From Chromohalobacter beijerinckii (GTDB lineage Bacteria > Pseudomonadota > Gammaproteobacteria > Pseudomonadales > Halomonadaceae): a DNA stretch of 64,000 nucleotides. This document shows positions 49,549 through 56,452 of the stretch, piece by piece; position 1 is the stretch's first letter; each line of letters begins with the position of its first letter. A model generated the notes under the pieces. The model made no database searches, was not told where the DNA came from, and saw nothing but the letters and a program-made list of their open reading frames with translations. The position numbers and the translations under genes were made by a program. The DNA lies in contig NZ_JAKGAK010000001.1 of the NCBI RefSeq assembly GCF_023061185.1, forward strand, positions 124,001-188,000. Direction: 5' to 3'.

Positions 49549-49638
49549 TTCGTCTTTCCTACGCTGCACACCGCATGGCGCCCTGCCCCTTTATGGGGTG
49601 GGGCGTTATGCTGTATGACCCTTTACAGGAGAACGCCC

Positions 49639-49938
49639 ATGACACTCAGCAAGACGCAAAGCAGCTTCTATCGTCGCTTATACGTCGCACACCTGATCGC
49701 CGGTGGCACGGCCAGCATCCCGGCACTGATCGAGGCCACGGGTATGCCACGCCGAACCGCCCAGGATACCGTCAACGCGCTGATCGAGTTGGATATTCAC
49801 TGCGAATTCGAACAGCAGGCCGGTGCCCGGCATCATATCGGGCGTTACGTCATCCGCGACTGGGGGCCCATCGACCCGACGTGGGTCGCCGCGCATGCCG
49901 AACGCTTGCGCGATGCCCTGGGCTATCCGCCAGGCTGA
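49639..49938 (+). CDS. Small winged-helix DNA-binding protein
   Basis: The 99-residue product begins SKTQSSFYRRLYVAHLIAGGTASIPALIEATGMPRRTAQDTVNALIELDIHCEF, which reads as a helix-turn-helix/winged-helix domain with the recognition helix near MPRRTAQDTVNAL. The second half (GARHHIGRYVIRDWGPIDPTWVAAHAERLRDALGYP) is conserved in similar small proteins of Pseudomonas relatives, as far as I recall. The ATG follows CAGGAGAA. It lies between btuB and the LexA-controlled radical SAM gene, in the same direction, with its own ribosome-binding site. Targets are unknown. Confidence 0.75.
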   Translation: MTLSKTQSSFYRRLYVAHLIAGGTASIPALIEATGMPRRTAQDTVNALIELDIHCEFEQQAGARHHIGRYVIRDWGPIDPTWVAAHAERLRDALGYPPG

Positions 49939-49954: not shown

Positions 49955-49997
49955 TTGAACCCACCTAAATGACGCCTATACTGTTTATATATACAGT
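49955..49997 (+). promoter_or_regulatory. LexA-controlled sigma-70 promoter of the radical SAM gene
   Basis: TTGAAC (49955-49960) and TATACT (49977-49982) are 16 bases apart. A perfect SOS box, CTGTTTATATATACAG at 49981-49996, fits the CTGT-N8-ACAG consensus with an AT-rich centre and overlaps the end of the -10 box. LexA bound there would cover the start of transcription. The radical SAM start codon is 12 bases beyond the box. Confidence 0.88.
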
Positions 49998-50008
49998 CAA
50001 GGCATTGC

Positions 50009-51088
50009 ATGATGACGACGCCCAGAGACCGCTCCCTCGCCCGCAAGGGCCGAGGCGCAACCTTCGACCCTCACAATCGTTTTTCACCCACGGTCAGTGA
50101 AGCCGTCGACGATGGCTGGTGGCAGGAAGAAACGCCCGCACGGTTGGCGACGCAAGTGCGTGACGAGCCCGCCAAGAGTGCGCTGTCCTGGAACCACTCG
50201 CCGGATTTGTCCTTCGATCGCTCGTTGAATCCCTATCGCGGTTGCGAGCACGGCTGCATCTACTGTTACGCACGTCCCAGCCATGCCTACTGGGACATGT
50301 CACCGGGGCTCGACTTCGAAACCAAGCTGATCGCGCGCACCGGCATGGTCGAGCGACTGCGCGATGAACTCGACAAACCCGGCTATGTCTGTCGGCCGAT
50401 CAACCTGTCGGGCAACACCGATTGCTATCAGCCGTTGGAAGCGGAACGCGGCACGACGCGAGCCCTGCTGGAATTGCTGCTGGATACCCGCCATCCCGTC
50501 ACGCTGGTCACCAAGAGCGCCTTGATCCTGCGTGACAAGGCCTTGCTCGCCGAGATGGCCGAGCACCGGCTGGTGCGTGTGTTCGTCAGCCTGACCAGCC
50601 TCGATGATGACCTCAAGCGGACGCTGGAACCACGCACGGCAGCACCGCGCACGCGCCTCAAGGTCATCCGCGAACTCAGCGAAGCCGGCATCCCCGTGGG
50701 CACCTTGATTTCGCCGGTGATTCCGGGGCTGACCGATCACGAACTCGAGTCCTTACTAGAGGCCGGACACGGCGCCGGCGCGCGCACCGCCGCCTGGATG
50801 CTGCTGCGCCTGCCGCATGAGGTCGCGCCACTTTTCGAAACCTGGCTAAACGAGCACTACCCGTTGCGTGCCGACAAGGTCATGAGCCTGATCCGCCAGT
50901 GCCGTGGCGGCGAGGACTACGATGCCCGCTTCGGCCATCGCATGCGCGGCGAAGGTGTGTTCGCGGAACTGCTGGCACAGCGCTTTCGCACGACCTGCCA
51001 GCGTTTGGGCATCGGTAACCGTACCGAGATGGGACTCGACACCAGTGCATTTCGCGCGCCCCATGCCCAAGGCGACCTATTCGACTGA
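50009..51088 (+). CDS. PA0069-family radical SAM protein
   Basis: The 359-residue protein carries the radical SAM cluster motif CEHGCIYCYARPSHAYW (about residues 78-94), a CxxxCxxC triad resembling spore photoproduct lyase, followed by NLSGNTDCYQPLE and the glycine-rich and strand motifs of a partial TIM barrel (VTLVTKSALILRDKALL, PVGTLISPVIPGLTDHE). It is the family of P. aeruginosa PA0069, a gene I recall being in the SOS regulon. The reaction is unknown; SplB-like DNA lesion reversal has been suggested by similarity only. The ATG at 50009 (or 50012) follows AAGG. It has a perfect LexA box on its promoter, so DNA damage should induce it. Confidence 0.88.
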   Translation: MMTTPRDRSLARKGRGATFDPHNRFSPTVSEAVDDGWWQEETPARLATQVRDEPAKSALSWNHSPDLSFDRSLNPYRGCEHGCIYCYARPSHAYWDMSPGLDFETKLIARTGMVERLRDELDKPGYVCRPINLSGNTDCYQPLEAERGTTRALLELLLDTRHPVTLVTKSALILRDKALLAEMAEHRLVRVFVSLTSLDDDLKRTLEPRTAAPRTRLKVIRELSEAGIPVGTLISPVIPGLTDHELESLLEAGHGAGARTAAWMLLRLPHEVAPLFETWLNEHYPLRADKVMSLIRQCRGGEDYDARFGHRMRGEGVFAELLAQRFRTTCQRLGIGNRTEMGLDTSAFRAPHAQGDLFD

Positions 51089-52307: not shown

Positions 52308-54629
52308 CTACCCTAGAGAAGCACCGCCCGGGTTGCGAGCCTGGTTGTCAACGTTTTGGGTGACGTGCCACCACGACGGCAATAACGCCTGAATGCGGGG
52401 CTCGGCGAAGCGGTCATCGATCAGATGAATCGTGCCTCGGTCCTCGTGTCCACGAATCACACGCCCGGCCGCCTGAATCACCTTCTGCACGCCAGGATAA
52501 ACGTAAGCATAGTCGTAGCCAGCGCCGAACATCGCCTGTAGATAGCGTCGACGCTGCTCGTTGACCGGATTGACCTGCGGCAGCCCCAGGGTGGCGATGA
52601 AGGCGCCGATCAGTCGCTCCCCTGGAAGATCGATGCCCTCGCCGAAGGCCCCACCGAGTACCGCGAACCCGACTCCGCACCCGTCCGACGTGAAACGCGC
52701 CAGGAAATCCGTCCGTGCCTTTTCGTCCATGCCCCGCCCCTGCTGCCATTGCGGCACCTCGGGGTGCGCCTCGCGCAAACGCGTGGCGACATCCTCCAGA
52801 TAAGCGAAGCTGCTGAAGAAGGCCAGATAATTACCCGGCCTACGCGCATAAGTGGCGGCGATCAAGTCGGCGATAGGTGCCAGCGATGCCTGGCGGTCGC
52901 GAAAGCGCGTGGATATGTGCCGGGCGATATGCACGCTGAGCTGTTCCTTGGCGAAGGGCGATGCCACGTCCAGCCACACACTGTCCTCGGGCAGCCCCAG
53001 CAGATCGCGCTGATAACGCTCGGGCGTCAGGGTCGCCGAAAACAGCACGCTGGCATGCGCCGCCTTGAAACGCGGGGTCAGCAATGGCGCCGGTACGATG
53101 TTGCGTAGACTCAGGCGCGCATGGCGCGTGCCGCGGTGGCCCGGGCGCATGGCGATGTCGCACACGAAGTGACGATCGAAGAGTTCGGCGACGCGTACCA
53201 TCTTCAAGGCATCGAAATAGAAACGCTGCAAGGCCGGTGACAAGGTATAAGGCGGCTCGGCCGCCACTTGCCCGATCGTTCCTACCAGGCGCTGCAACGC
53301 CGCGAGCCACGCCTCGGGCACATTTTCGAGTGCGGTATGCTCGTTGACGCACTCGCGGCCCAGCACGTTCCATTCGCGATTGAGCTGCTTGAGCGCGGCG
53401 CTAACGCCGGCAGGTTTCTCGCGTATCAGGGCGCGTAAATCGCCTTGATCGAGGCTCGCGCTGTACATGTCACGCGCGCGTTCGACCAGGTTGTGCGCCT
53501 CATCGACCAGCACGCCCAGGCGCCAGTCGTTGGCCTGAGTCAATAAATGCAGCAAGCCGCCGCTGGCGAAGTAATAGTGATAATCGCCCACCGTCACATC
53601 GCTCCAGCGCGCCATTTCCTGCCCCAGGTAATACGGGCAGACGCCATGCGCCAAGGCGGCATCGCGCACGTGCGTGCGATCCCAGTCGCCTCCGGCGATC
53701 AATGCACGCCGTGCGTCAGGCAGCTTATCGAAAAAGCCCGCCGCCAACGGGCAGGACTCGCCGTGGCAGGCAAGATCGGGATGCTCGCAGGCCTTGTCGC
53801 GCGCGGTCAGCTCCAGCACGCGCAGCGGCGTCGTTTCCACCACGGGGCTCAGCGCATCCAGCGCCAGCTGTCGCCCGGGGGTTTTGGCGGCGAGATAGCA
53901 CAGGCCATCGAGGCGTTGCATGGGCATCGCCTTGAGCATAGGAAAGAGTGTGCCCAGCGTCTTGCCGGTGCCCGTCGGCGCTTGGGCCAGCAACGCGCGC
54001 CCGGTACTGGCCGCCTTGTAGACGTTTTCCGCCAGCGTGCGCTGCTCACCCTGCCAGCTCGCATGCGGAAAACGCATCGCGGCAAGCGCCTCATCGCGTG
54101 CCGTACGGTGCGCGGTTTCCTGCAATGCCCAATCGAGGAACGCCGCGCATTGCGCTTCGAAGAAATGACGCAAGGTTTCACGGTCCACACGCTCGACGAG
54201 CGGCGTCTCGACCTGGCGGGCGATATCGAAATACACCAGCGCCAGCTCGAGTTCGTCGAGGCCTCGCGCCTCGCACAGCAACCAGCCGTAAAGGCGCAGC
54301 TGGGCCCAATGCAGATGACGATGATTCTCCGGCTGACGCGTCAGGTCACCGCGATGGGTCTTGATCTCTTCCAAGCGTCCACGTTGCGGATCGAAACCGT
54401 CGGCACGCCCACGCACGCGCAAGCCTTGCCCGGCAGCACTCCAGTAGACGCCGCTCAAGGCGACTTCGCGCTCATAATGGGCGTCGCGACGCGAGGCCAC
54501 TCGGGCATGCCCTTCGATGCCTTCTTCAGCGCTGGGCGACGGCGTGAAACGCAAGTCGAGATCGCCGCGCTTGGCGGTGAAATCGCACAGGCTGCGCACC
54601 GCTACCGTATAATCCACTGCCTCGCTCAT
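52308..54629 (-). CDS. XPD/Rad3-like helicase with N-terminal RecB/Cas4-type nuclease motifs
   Basis: The 773-residue product is a superfamily-2 DNA helicase of the DinG/XPD type. It has Walker A in LLAQAPTGTGKTLG (residues 217-224), the iron-sulfur cysteines in CEHPDLACHGESCPL and GVCPYY, the Walker B VDEAHN, and the late helicase motifs CGVGFAVLGGAFGEGIDLPGERL and QAAGRVIRGHEDRGTI. The first 200 residues carry a RecB/Cas4-like nuclease motif set: H41, D77 in RGRAD, E88-I-K90 and QLRLY at 110-114. The ATG at 54629 overlaps the stop of the VRR-NUC gene by four bases, so the two are made together. The 3' end lies 22 bases from the palindromic element. Confidence 0.9.
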   Translation of the reverse strand: MSEAVDYTVAVRSLCDFTAKRGDLDLRFTPSPSAEEGIEGHARVASRRDAHYEREVALSGVYWSAAGQGLRVRGRADGFDPQRGRLEEIKTHRGDLTRQPENHRHLHWAQLRLYGWLLCEARGLDELELALVYFDIARQVETPLVERVDRETLRHFFEAQCAAFLDWALQETAHRTARDEALAAMRFPHASWQGEQRTLAENVYKAASTGRALLAQAPTGTGKTLGTLFPMLKAMPMQRLDGLCYLAAKTPGRQLALDALSPVVETTPLRVLELTARDKACEHPDLACHGESCPLAAGFFDKLPDARRALIAGGDWDRTHVRDAALAHGVCPYYLGQEMARWSDVTVGDYHYYFASGGLLHLLTQANDWRLGVLVDEAHNLVERARDMYSASLDQGDLRALIREKPAGVSAALKQLNREWNVLGRECVNEHTALENVPEAWLAALQRLVGTIGQVAAEPPYTLSPALQRFYFDALKMVRVAELFDRHFVCDIAMRPGHRGTRHARLSLRNIVPAPLLTPRFKAAHASVLFSATLTPERYQRDLLGLPEDSVWLDVASPFAKEQLSVHIARHISTRFRDRQASLAPIADLIAATYARRPGNYLAFFSSFAYLEDVATRLREAHPEVPQWQQGRGMDEKARTDFLARFTSDGCGVGFAVLGGAFGEGIDLPGERLIGAFIATLGLPQVNPVNEQRRRYLQAMFGAGYDYAYVYPGVQKVIQAAGRVIRGHEDRGTIHLIDDRFAEPRIQALLPSWWHVTQNVDNQARNPGGASLG

Positions 54630-56302
54630 GACGCCCACGTCACGTGGCAGACATCGAGAGGCATGGCGTGACGCGCGCAAAACGCCAGCCACCGGCGTTG
54701 ATTGTCCTGCAGACGATCGCCCGGTCCCTTGACCTCGATCATCCGGTAGTCGCCCTGCTCGGGGCGAAATTGGATCAGGTCCGGCATGCCTGCTCGATTG
54801 GCACGTACATCGCGCAGCAGACGCTCGAACCACAGCCGCAGATGCGCCGCCGGCAGACACGCCAGCGCCATTTCCAGCAGCGCTTCATCGAGCGCCTCCC
54901 ACTGCACGAAAGCGGATTCGAGCCCGTGCTTGTCATGATAGGTACGGCGAATCACGGCGCGATAGCCATGCTCGCCCTCGGGCACCTCGAGACGTGCCAA
55001 GCACTGTGCGAATAGCGTCTCGCGACGCGACGCGAACTCGGGGCGCAGCAGATCCGCGGGAGCACGCTGGAACGGATGAAAGAAGGCCCCAGCAAGTGGC
55101 GCGAACACCGCCTCCCAACACAGCAAACCGAACAGTGCATTGATCAGTGCGTTCTCGACGTAGTAGACCGGCATCGACTCGCACGACAGATGCGCCGCCA
55201 CGGCGCGTTCCACCGACGCCGTACGGGGTAGCGTCATCTCCAGGCGCGGCGGTACCGGTTCCTCGGTCACGGACGGCGGCGCGAGTGCAAGACGGCGATG
55301 CAGACGCGGCAACAGGCGGTCCAACTGCTGACGTTCGGCCTCGCTTTCCGGCGCCGCTGCGGCGTCGTTGGCCAGCGCCAAAGCCTCGGCATGGCAGGTT
55401 TGGCGCTCCAGCATGCGCAGGCGGCGCCCACGGGCACCGGGATGAACGCTCTGCGCGTAAAGGCCTGCCGCTGCCTCCAGCGCACCTTCGCGCTCACGCG
55501 CCCGAGCCAGCAGAAACAACAGCTTGCCACGCCGGTTTTCCAGCCATGGATTGTCATTCGCCGCCGGCACGTCATGAAGTATGTCGGCAATCGGCTCGCC
55601 AGCCTCCAGGCGCTCGCGACAGGCATGCAGATGTACGTAGGTGTGAATGTCTTCGCGGCGCTGAAAGGCCCGCGAGGCAGGACTCAGCGGTACCCGCTCG
55701 AAGCGGCGCACGCCAAGATCGGCAAGCACGAACTCGCTCCAGTCCTGATGCAGGTTGCCGAAGAACATCAAGCGCAGCCGCTCACACAGCGCCATGCGCG
55801 TCATGCGCACCACCTTGAAGGGAATCTCGGGGCACCATGCGGTCAGCGAATGCTCGCCAAGGTCGGCCTCGGCGAGCACCTCGAGCATGTCCGCCTTGCG
55901 CGCGCCACGCGTGAGGCCGTGATCCCGCAACAGCCCGTGCAGATGGCGGCCGATCTCGGCTTTGGTCAGCAAGGACCACAGCGCCGCCAGCGATAGAGGC
56001 GGATCGTCCTCCACCCATTCGCATTCGATCAACGCCACCATCGCCGAAGACGACGTTCCGATTTCCGCATAGTCGAGCCGGTCGTCACGAAAAGTATCGC
56101 CTTTGCGCATGACCATACGCACCCACAGCGCCTGCGCGGGCTCGGGCAAGGTTTCAAAACGAGTGAGAAAGTCGCGCTCTTCGTCATCGAACAGATCCAC
56201 GTAGCACGCTTCGATCCAGCGCAAGGCACTGCGGAAGTTATGCAGATAATAAAGCGGATCGTCGAGGGATGCGGGGCGCGGCGGGAGCGGTGTAGCGTTC
56301 AT
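54626..56302 (-). CDS. FAN1-like VRR-NUC structure-specific nuclease
   Basis: The 558-residue protein has the architecture of bacterial FAN1 homologues: an N-terminal DNA-binding region, a helical TPR-like middle (residues about 230-360) and a C-terminal VRR-NUC nuclease domain. The catalytic residues are visible in NRAGMPDLIQF and MIEVKGPGDRLQDNQRRW (D508, E523, K525, Q535), with the same spacing as D960/E975/K977 of human FAN1. FAN1 enzymes cut 5' flaps and unhook DNA interstrand crosslinks. I chose the ATG at 56302; the frame continues upstream without family features. It is the first gene of a two-gene operon with the helicase. No LexA box is evident upstream. Confidence 0.92.
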   Translation of the reverse strand: MNATPLPPRPASLDDPLYYLHNFRSALRWIEACYVDLFDDEERDFLTRFETLPEPAQALWVRMVMRKGDTFRDDRLDYAEIGTSSSAMVALIECEWVEDDPPLSLAALWSLLTKAEIGRHLHGLLRDHGLTRGARKADMLEVLAEADLGEHSLTAWCPEIPFKVVRMTRMALCERLRLMFFGNLHQDWSEFVLADLGVRRFERVPLSPASRAFQRREDIHTYVHLHACRERLEAGEPIADILHDVPAANDNPWLENRRGKLLFLLARAREREGALEAAAGLYAQSVHPGARGRRLRMLERQTCHAEALALANDAAAAPESEAERQQLDRLLPRLHRRLALAPPSVTEEPVPPRLEMTLPRTASVERAVAAHLSCESMPVYYVENALINALFGLLCWEAVFAPLAGAFFHPFQRAPADLLRPEFASRRETLFAQCLARLEVPEGEHGYRAVIRRTYHDKHGLESAFVQWEALDEALLEMALACLPAAHLRLWFERLLRDVRANRAGMPDLIQFRPEQGDYRMIEVKGPGDRLQDNQRRWLAFCARHAMPLDVCHVTWAS

Positions 56303-56452
56303 GAACGCATGATAGCAACCGCGTCTTGGCGACCCAAGCAGAGCGCACCTAGTCTGGCGATATGTTAGAACGCGACATTGCGCCGCCCCGTATCCGAGCC
56401 CTGCTTTGTTATAATCTCGGAACGCATTCAATCGACGAAGAAAGAGCCCGCC

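Follow-up and report, generated by a model that had tools for sequence, protein, structure and literature searches.

The closest described counterparts of the gene reported here are the LexA-controlled splB (COG1533) and radical S-adenosylmethionine (SAM) genes of the SOS literature and, by fold, spore photoproduct lyase (SPL). Our gene is a PA0069-family radical-SAM gene of Chromohalobacter beijerinckii that starts behind a putative LexA operator. It lies in a 64,000-nt stretch of contig NZ_JAKGAK010000001.1 (positions 124,001 to 188,000), which was analysed as a whole and is called the window. We took the PA0069 family (NF033668) to be part of the COG1533 'SplB' of that literature. SPL genes are under sporulation control, and a cysteine of SPL is its hydrogen donor. 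One study predicted that LexA controls splB in alpha- and beta-Proteobacteria and did not observe this control in its gamma group (PMC3323433). A radical-SAM protein was reported in Gram-positive core and Balneolaeota regulons (PMC7739468), and SplB (COG1533) in a Bacteroidetes regulon, with Cirz 2006 cited among the earlier cases (PMC8565304). Moreover, a Streptomyces radical-SAM gene had a LexA chromatin immunoprecipitation signal (PMC9380542), SplB-like genes occurred in SOS-linked operons (PMC3765255) and SplB was among the genes upregulated in Pseudomonas fluorescens under epigallocatechin gallate (PMC5435343). The original prediction needs correcting in that SOS control of this COG was already known (PMC3323433, PMC7739468, PMC8565304). 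The PA0069 family resembles the genes of these three reports, which may or may not belong to it, in its predicted LexA control. Titles and abstract openings of the literature searched (open-licence full texts) contained no biochemistry of PA0069, Rv2578c or COG1533.

We consider it probable that the gene is a LexA-repressed, SOS-inducible single-gene unit whose product is an SPL-fold [4Fe-4S]/SAM radical enzyme, most likely acting on damaged DNA. Direct reading of the sequence confirmed the layout of promoter and LexA box that had been claimed:

49955..49960, plus strand: -35 hexamer TTGAAC, read from the sequence
49977..49982, plus strand: -10 hexamer TATACT, 16-base spacer from the -35 hexamer, two-base overlap with the operator, read from the sequence
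49981..49996, plus strand: putative LexA operator CTGTTTATATATACAG, from the sequence, the consensus match and conservation at orthologues
49999..50002, plus strand: AAGG, likely ribosome-binding site, from the sequence
50009..51088, plus strand: PA0069-family radical-SAM protein of 359 aa, from NF033668 and PF04055 matches
50243..50266, plus strand: codons of the [4Fe-4S] motif CEHGCIYC (residues 79-86), three cysteines present in 65/65 homologues

The start codon at 50009 is read 12 bases past the operator, and a further in-frame ATG stands at 50012.

CTGTTTATATATACAG is the sole CTGT-N8-ACAG in the window. On its own, the core is not significant: a window is expected to hold 0.61 sites, at least one occurred in 51 of 100 shuffles, and the genome holds 18 sites vs. 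31 for the reversed control pattern. With respect to the AT-rich consensus CTGTATATATATACAG, CTGTTTATATATACAG has one mismatch, and the expected number of matches with ≤3 mismatches is 0.02. Among the 15 core matches with ≤1 mismatch in the window, it alone has a spacer with at least six A/T in eight positions. The operator goes beyond chance because it is conserved upstream of orthologues. Core boxes were also found in this genome upstream of recA, recN and a LexA/UmuD-like peptidase gene (TIGR00498 at 37.8 bits, below the cutoff), and lexA itself has a box with one mismatch. The site over the promoter is of the genome's own LexA class. Several of the remaining core boxes of the genome lie inside open reading frames (ORFs) and are apparently incidental. 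Separately, a strong LexA-type box (L111, G000:C1:5132-5147) was seen in this genome 129 bases 5' of a SatD-like gene (named by eye).

Conservation was examined in two draws, 115 genomes of the same order (family match in 33, over the cutoff in 27) and 299 genomes of the phylum (150 and 144). The 200 nt (+15) before the profile match were scanned, and the counts are raw numbers in which relatedness is ignored. The exact gamma-type box was found at 22 of the 27 over-cutoff genes of the first draw and at 10 of 11 same-order genes of the phylum draw (the twelfth, the interrupted gene of G386, was excluded), hence at 32/38 same-order genes overall. The remainder of the class, 23 genes all found in the phylum draw, had the exact box in 11 cases. 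Combined, the order and class draws gave 43/61, while the reversed control gave 0/61. We also kept 80 named loci out of 589 relatives. Here, the exact box was present in 6/8 Halomonadaceae, 23/24 Pseudomonas/Stutzerimonas and 16/31 other gamma/beta loci and unclassified bins, and in 0/7 Xanthomonadales-like and 0/10 alpha loci. Of twelve minus-strand loci that were scanned, ten had the exact box, one had a single mismatch and one, a weak family match (L029), had none. Both the LexA box, by its consensus match and its conservation at orthologues, and the claimed conservation across distant genera are therefore supported. In the gammaproteobacterial networks studied in PMC3323433 this trait was not observed, in contrast to the same-order and Pseudomonas/Stutzerimonas genes counted here.

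Operator classes before PA0069-type genes numbered five, the gamma box included, and the class of the gene changes along with that of LexA. At phylum level, 56 of 96 over-cutoff places were taken (the 30 best-scoring and 26 hand-picked from further down the list), and 48 of the 56 had the alpha site GTTC-N7-GTTC (control 3). Judged by this operator and the named loci, the group is probably alphaproteobacterial. All ten named alpha loci had the site (control 0; 270 nt scanned, a width chosen after the first scan). The lexA genes of three alpha-type genomes have GAAC-N7-GAAC, which is GTTC-N7-GTTC read on the other strand; the radical-SAM genes of these genomes had the exact site (L132), one mismatch (L195) and no site (L157). 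The gene is preceded by GAACGNNCGTTC in L075 and L089 and by a one-mismatch form in G392, and lexA is preceded by GAACGNNCGTTC in the matching genomes G398, G399 and G392. TTAGTAATAATACTAA and TTAGCAATAATACTAA stand at the gene in G194 and G345; the lexA site of these two genomes is the longer TTAGTAGTAATACTACTAA. Luteibacter (L071) has GTACATTTGTAC at the gene and GTACAAATGTAC at lexA, the same palindrome on opposite strands. Variant operators were also seen 5' of the gene at L064 and L105, namely CTGT-N6-ACAG (spacing two shorter) and CTGG-N8-CCAG.

A further promoter class was found in the gammaproteobacterial family f52, which we take to be Xanthomonadaceae/Lysobacteraceae. The native PA0069 gene has TGAGAC-N10-YANNNT just 5' of its ATG in 5/5 f52 genomes (G143, G194, G198, G327 and G345), and lexA in these genomes has a TTAGTA-type site. 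The TGAGAC type was also present at Dyella, Rhodanobacter and Lysobacterales loci (L072, L082, L087 and L101; L083 with one change). A loose TGAGAC pattern gave 20 sites in five genomes vs. 2 in the control, with an ORF of at least 60 codons behind 12 of the 20. With exactly six bases to the ATG, TGAGAC-N10-YANNNT-N6-ATG occurred at 35 sites, spread over 27 of 60 f52 genomes, against none for the reversed control; in 61 genomes of the window's own family it gave 15 vs. 15 in the control, which is background. The TGAGAC sites are at loci L293-L299, L301, L303, L304, L309 and L311-L336.

The genes behind 34 of the 35 sites comprised 25 DNA-repair or nucleotide genes and 9 others, named by Pfam or NCBIfam for one member per group and by similarity for the rest. 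The repair side included PA0069 (8, one of them the truncated native copy in G194), the likewise SPL-like radical-SAM protein TIGR03916 linked to uracil-DNA glycosylase (4), RmuC (3; the RmuC-like L226 had no NCBIfam match), a Lhr-type helicase (3) and 5'-nucleotidase (3). RecQ, an AlkB-type 2-oxoglutarate-Fe(II) (2OG-Fe(II)) oxygenase, an exonuclease-I-type protein and UmuD occurred once each. The other nine were an arginyltransferase, an ADP-ribosylglycohydrolase-like protein, a KTSC protein, a periplasmic binding protein, three unassigned short proteins (L313, L322 and L327) and two 8-codon ORFs. The mycobacterial LexA-independent damage promoter, with the consensus tTGTCRgtg-8nt-TannnT (PMC5656591), has a like geometry: counted from TGTC or TGAGAC, the -10 follows at 16 bases in each. 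The TGAGAC class is a candidate for a LexA-independent damage regulon, and from its spacing it would be leaderless. If damage-induced, it would give a large gammaproteobacterial family a second system for responding to damage. The titles and abstract openings searched held no description of such a promoter.

WYL regulators acting at this promoter are a lead only. Two to three WYL matches were found in each of the nine f52 genomes searched and none in the window's genome, and the largest similarity group covered 7/9 f52 genomes. Matches also in E. coli and six other control genomes weigh against WYL as the TGAGAC regulator, and the sequence before the WYL frames, with their start codons crudely set, yielded no motif.

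Four genomes have an insertion that splits the gene between the codons of its first two Fe-S cysteines (L270, L271, L272/L273 and L274). Both gene pieces meet at the insertion point in G345 and G347. In G194, the 5' piece stops there, and of the rest only residues 257-358 were found, 18 kb on; the stretch from G386 holds the 3' piece only. Next to the 3' piece, G347 and G386 carry large serine recombinase genes; the one ORF searched in each of G345 and G194 gave no match. An intact second copy adjoins the 5' piece in G345, G347 and G194, so the gene was kept, which fits a useful function. The second copy shares 182/277 identical residues with the native 3' piece in G345 and 217/280 in G347. 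G345 and G194 combine a TGAGAC-type native promoter with a TTAGTA-type (LexA-type) site at the second copy. In G347, GTTC-N7-GTTC stands in the native promoter, and the ATG of the second copy overlaps the 3' end of the 5'-fragment ORF.

The protein belongs to the PA0069 family, as had been claimed (NF033668: 467 bits vs. a cutoff of 360, profile positions 1-342 of 348), and to the radical-SAM superfamily (PF04055: 72.7 bits vs. 29.5, its sole Pfam match). Rv2578c (NF038135) scored second best, and at 196 bits the protein is far under that family's cutoff of 430. The predicted cysteine triad holds: Cys79/83/86 of CX3CX2C are kept in 65/65 homologues. SPL was the best match by fold and by wide profile; in the PDB search, profile A1 alone missed SPL and the wider profile A2 reached it, while a single archaeal relative as query did not reach it. 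SPL (TIGR04070; PDB 4fhc-4fhg, 4k9r and 4rh0) shares the fold, CX3CX2C, a tyrosine beside the cluster and an E-P...R...P core. Thus, the claimed likeness to SPL stood for fold and Fe-S motif and fell for the catalytic cysteine, which is missing in 65/65 homologues. A further difference is the predicted LexA control of PA0069-type genes instead of sporulation control.

Under the standard mechanism, LexA at 49981-49996 would block the -10 region, and damage would free the promoter through RecA-driven self-cleavage of LexA. The enzyme would start its chemistry via a 5'-deoxyadenosyl radical, perhaps ended through the invariant Tyr85 or Tyr140. As the hydrogen-donor cysteine of SPL is absent, it should treat another lesion or terminate the radical differently. 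The relatives stay under predicted damage control in many bacteria despite a changed target sequence, which supports a place in the damage response and points to the handling of damaged DNA. Since this place was kept through exchanged operators and once an apparently exchanged regulator, the gene very likely helps to deal with damaged DNA in some way, and lesion repair may be its role. More tentatively, PA0069-type proteins could form a class of their own among enzymes that reverse DNA lesions directly, with the SPL fold and without the SPL cysteine. Their damage control would run through at least five classes of LexA operator and, in a single gammaproteobacterial family, would have passed to a leaderless, LexA-independent repair regulon (TGAGAC-N10-YANNNT-N6-ATG). 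Identifying the lesion would add to the direct-reversal activities known.

Several observations weigh against a damage-controlled DNA enzyme. Of the 115 same-order genomes, 82 lack the family (88 if only over-cutoff matches count). The same-order L012 has no recognised site, L018 and L185 have degraded boxes only, and three more of the 27 genes in the same-order draw have a one-mismatch box. No recognised site was found in 4/23 genes of the class draw (L165, L166, L177 and L181) or in 9/31 'other gamma/beta' loci (L068, L069, L077, L081, L094, L095, L097, L108 and L109; L097 has hardly any upstream sequence to scan). Of the 56 alpha-type genes, five have at least two mismatches to the site (L154, L156, L157, L205 and L213) and three have one; the named locus L035 has two. 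No conserved operon partner was found in the 25 largest ORF clusters of the 80 named loci, which, aside from frames overlapping the gene itself, reflect Pseudomonas-type synteny only. Finally, a fold shared with SPL says nothing firm on a shared substrate.

An SOS-induced radical-SAM enzyme that works on tRNA, nucleotides or a peptide and aids the damage response indirectly is rather unlikely: SPL is the best match by both searches, and the promoter class of the apparently LexA-independent group is common mostly to DNA-repair genes. True SPL activity, the reversal of the thymine dimer spore photoproduct with another hydrogen donor, is considerably less probable. The SPL fold and CX3CX2C would fit it, as would the alignment of SPL Tyr97 (B. 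velezensis numbering, L285), Lys175, Glu207, Arg216 and Pro236 with the invariant Tyr85 and with K169, E207, R216 and P236, and TIGR04070 was matched at E ≤10 by 49/65 members (best 8.6e-7). However, the cysteine invariant in 6/6 SPLs (Cys141 in B. velezensis, Cys140 in the solved enzyme, with C140A/C140S mutants among the PDB titles) aligns with residue 135, where 0/65 homologues have cysteine. The window protein scored 11 bits vs. a cutoff of 400 for TIGR04070 and 10.8 vs. 437.55 for TIGR03886, and SPL identity was rejected. The LexA-like box could be an AT-rich palindrome that arose by chance, as its core frequency in window and genome might suggest; this is highly improbable and was rejected, because conservation at orthologue promoters (exact box vs. 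reversed control) outweighs that frequency.

Regarding the neighbourhood, a gene for an HTH_43 winged-helix protein (49615-49938) lies immediately 5' of the operator. Two genes past the radical-SAM gene, a Rad3/DinG/YoaA-like helicase gene overlaps a FAN1-like VRR-NUC nuclease gene (52308-56431, minus strand). A distant relative on the Staphylococcus saprophyticus plasmid NZ_CP022057.1 (L282) is flanked by annotated 2OG-Fe(II) oxygenase and DNA glycosylase genes.
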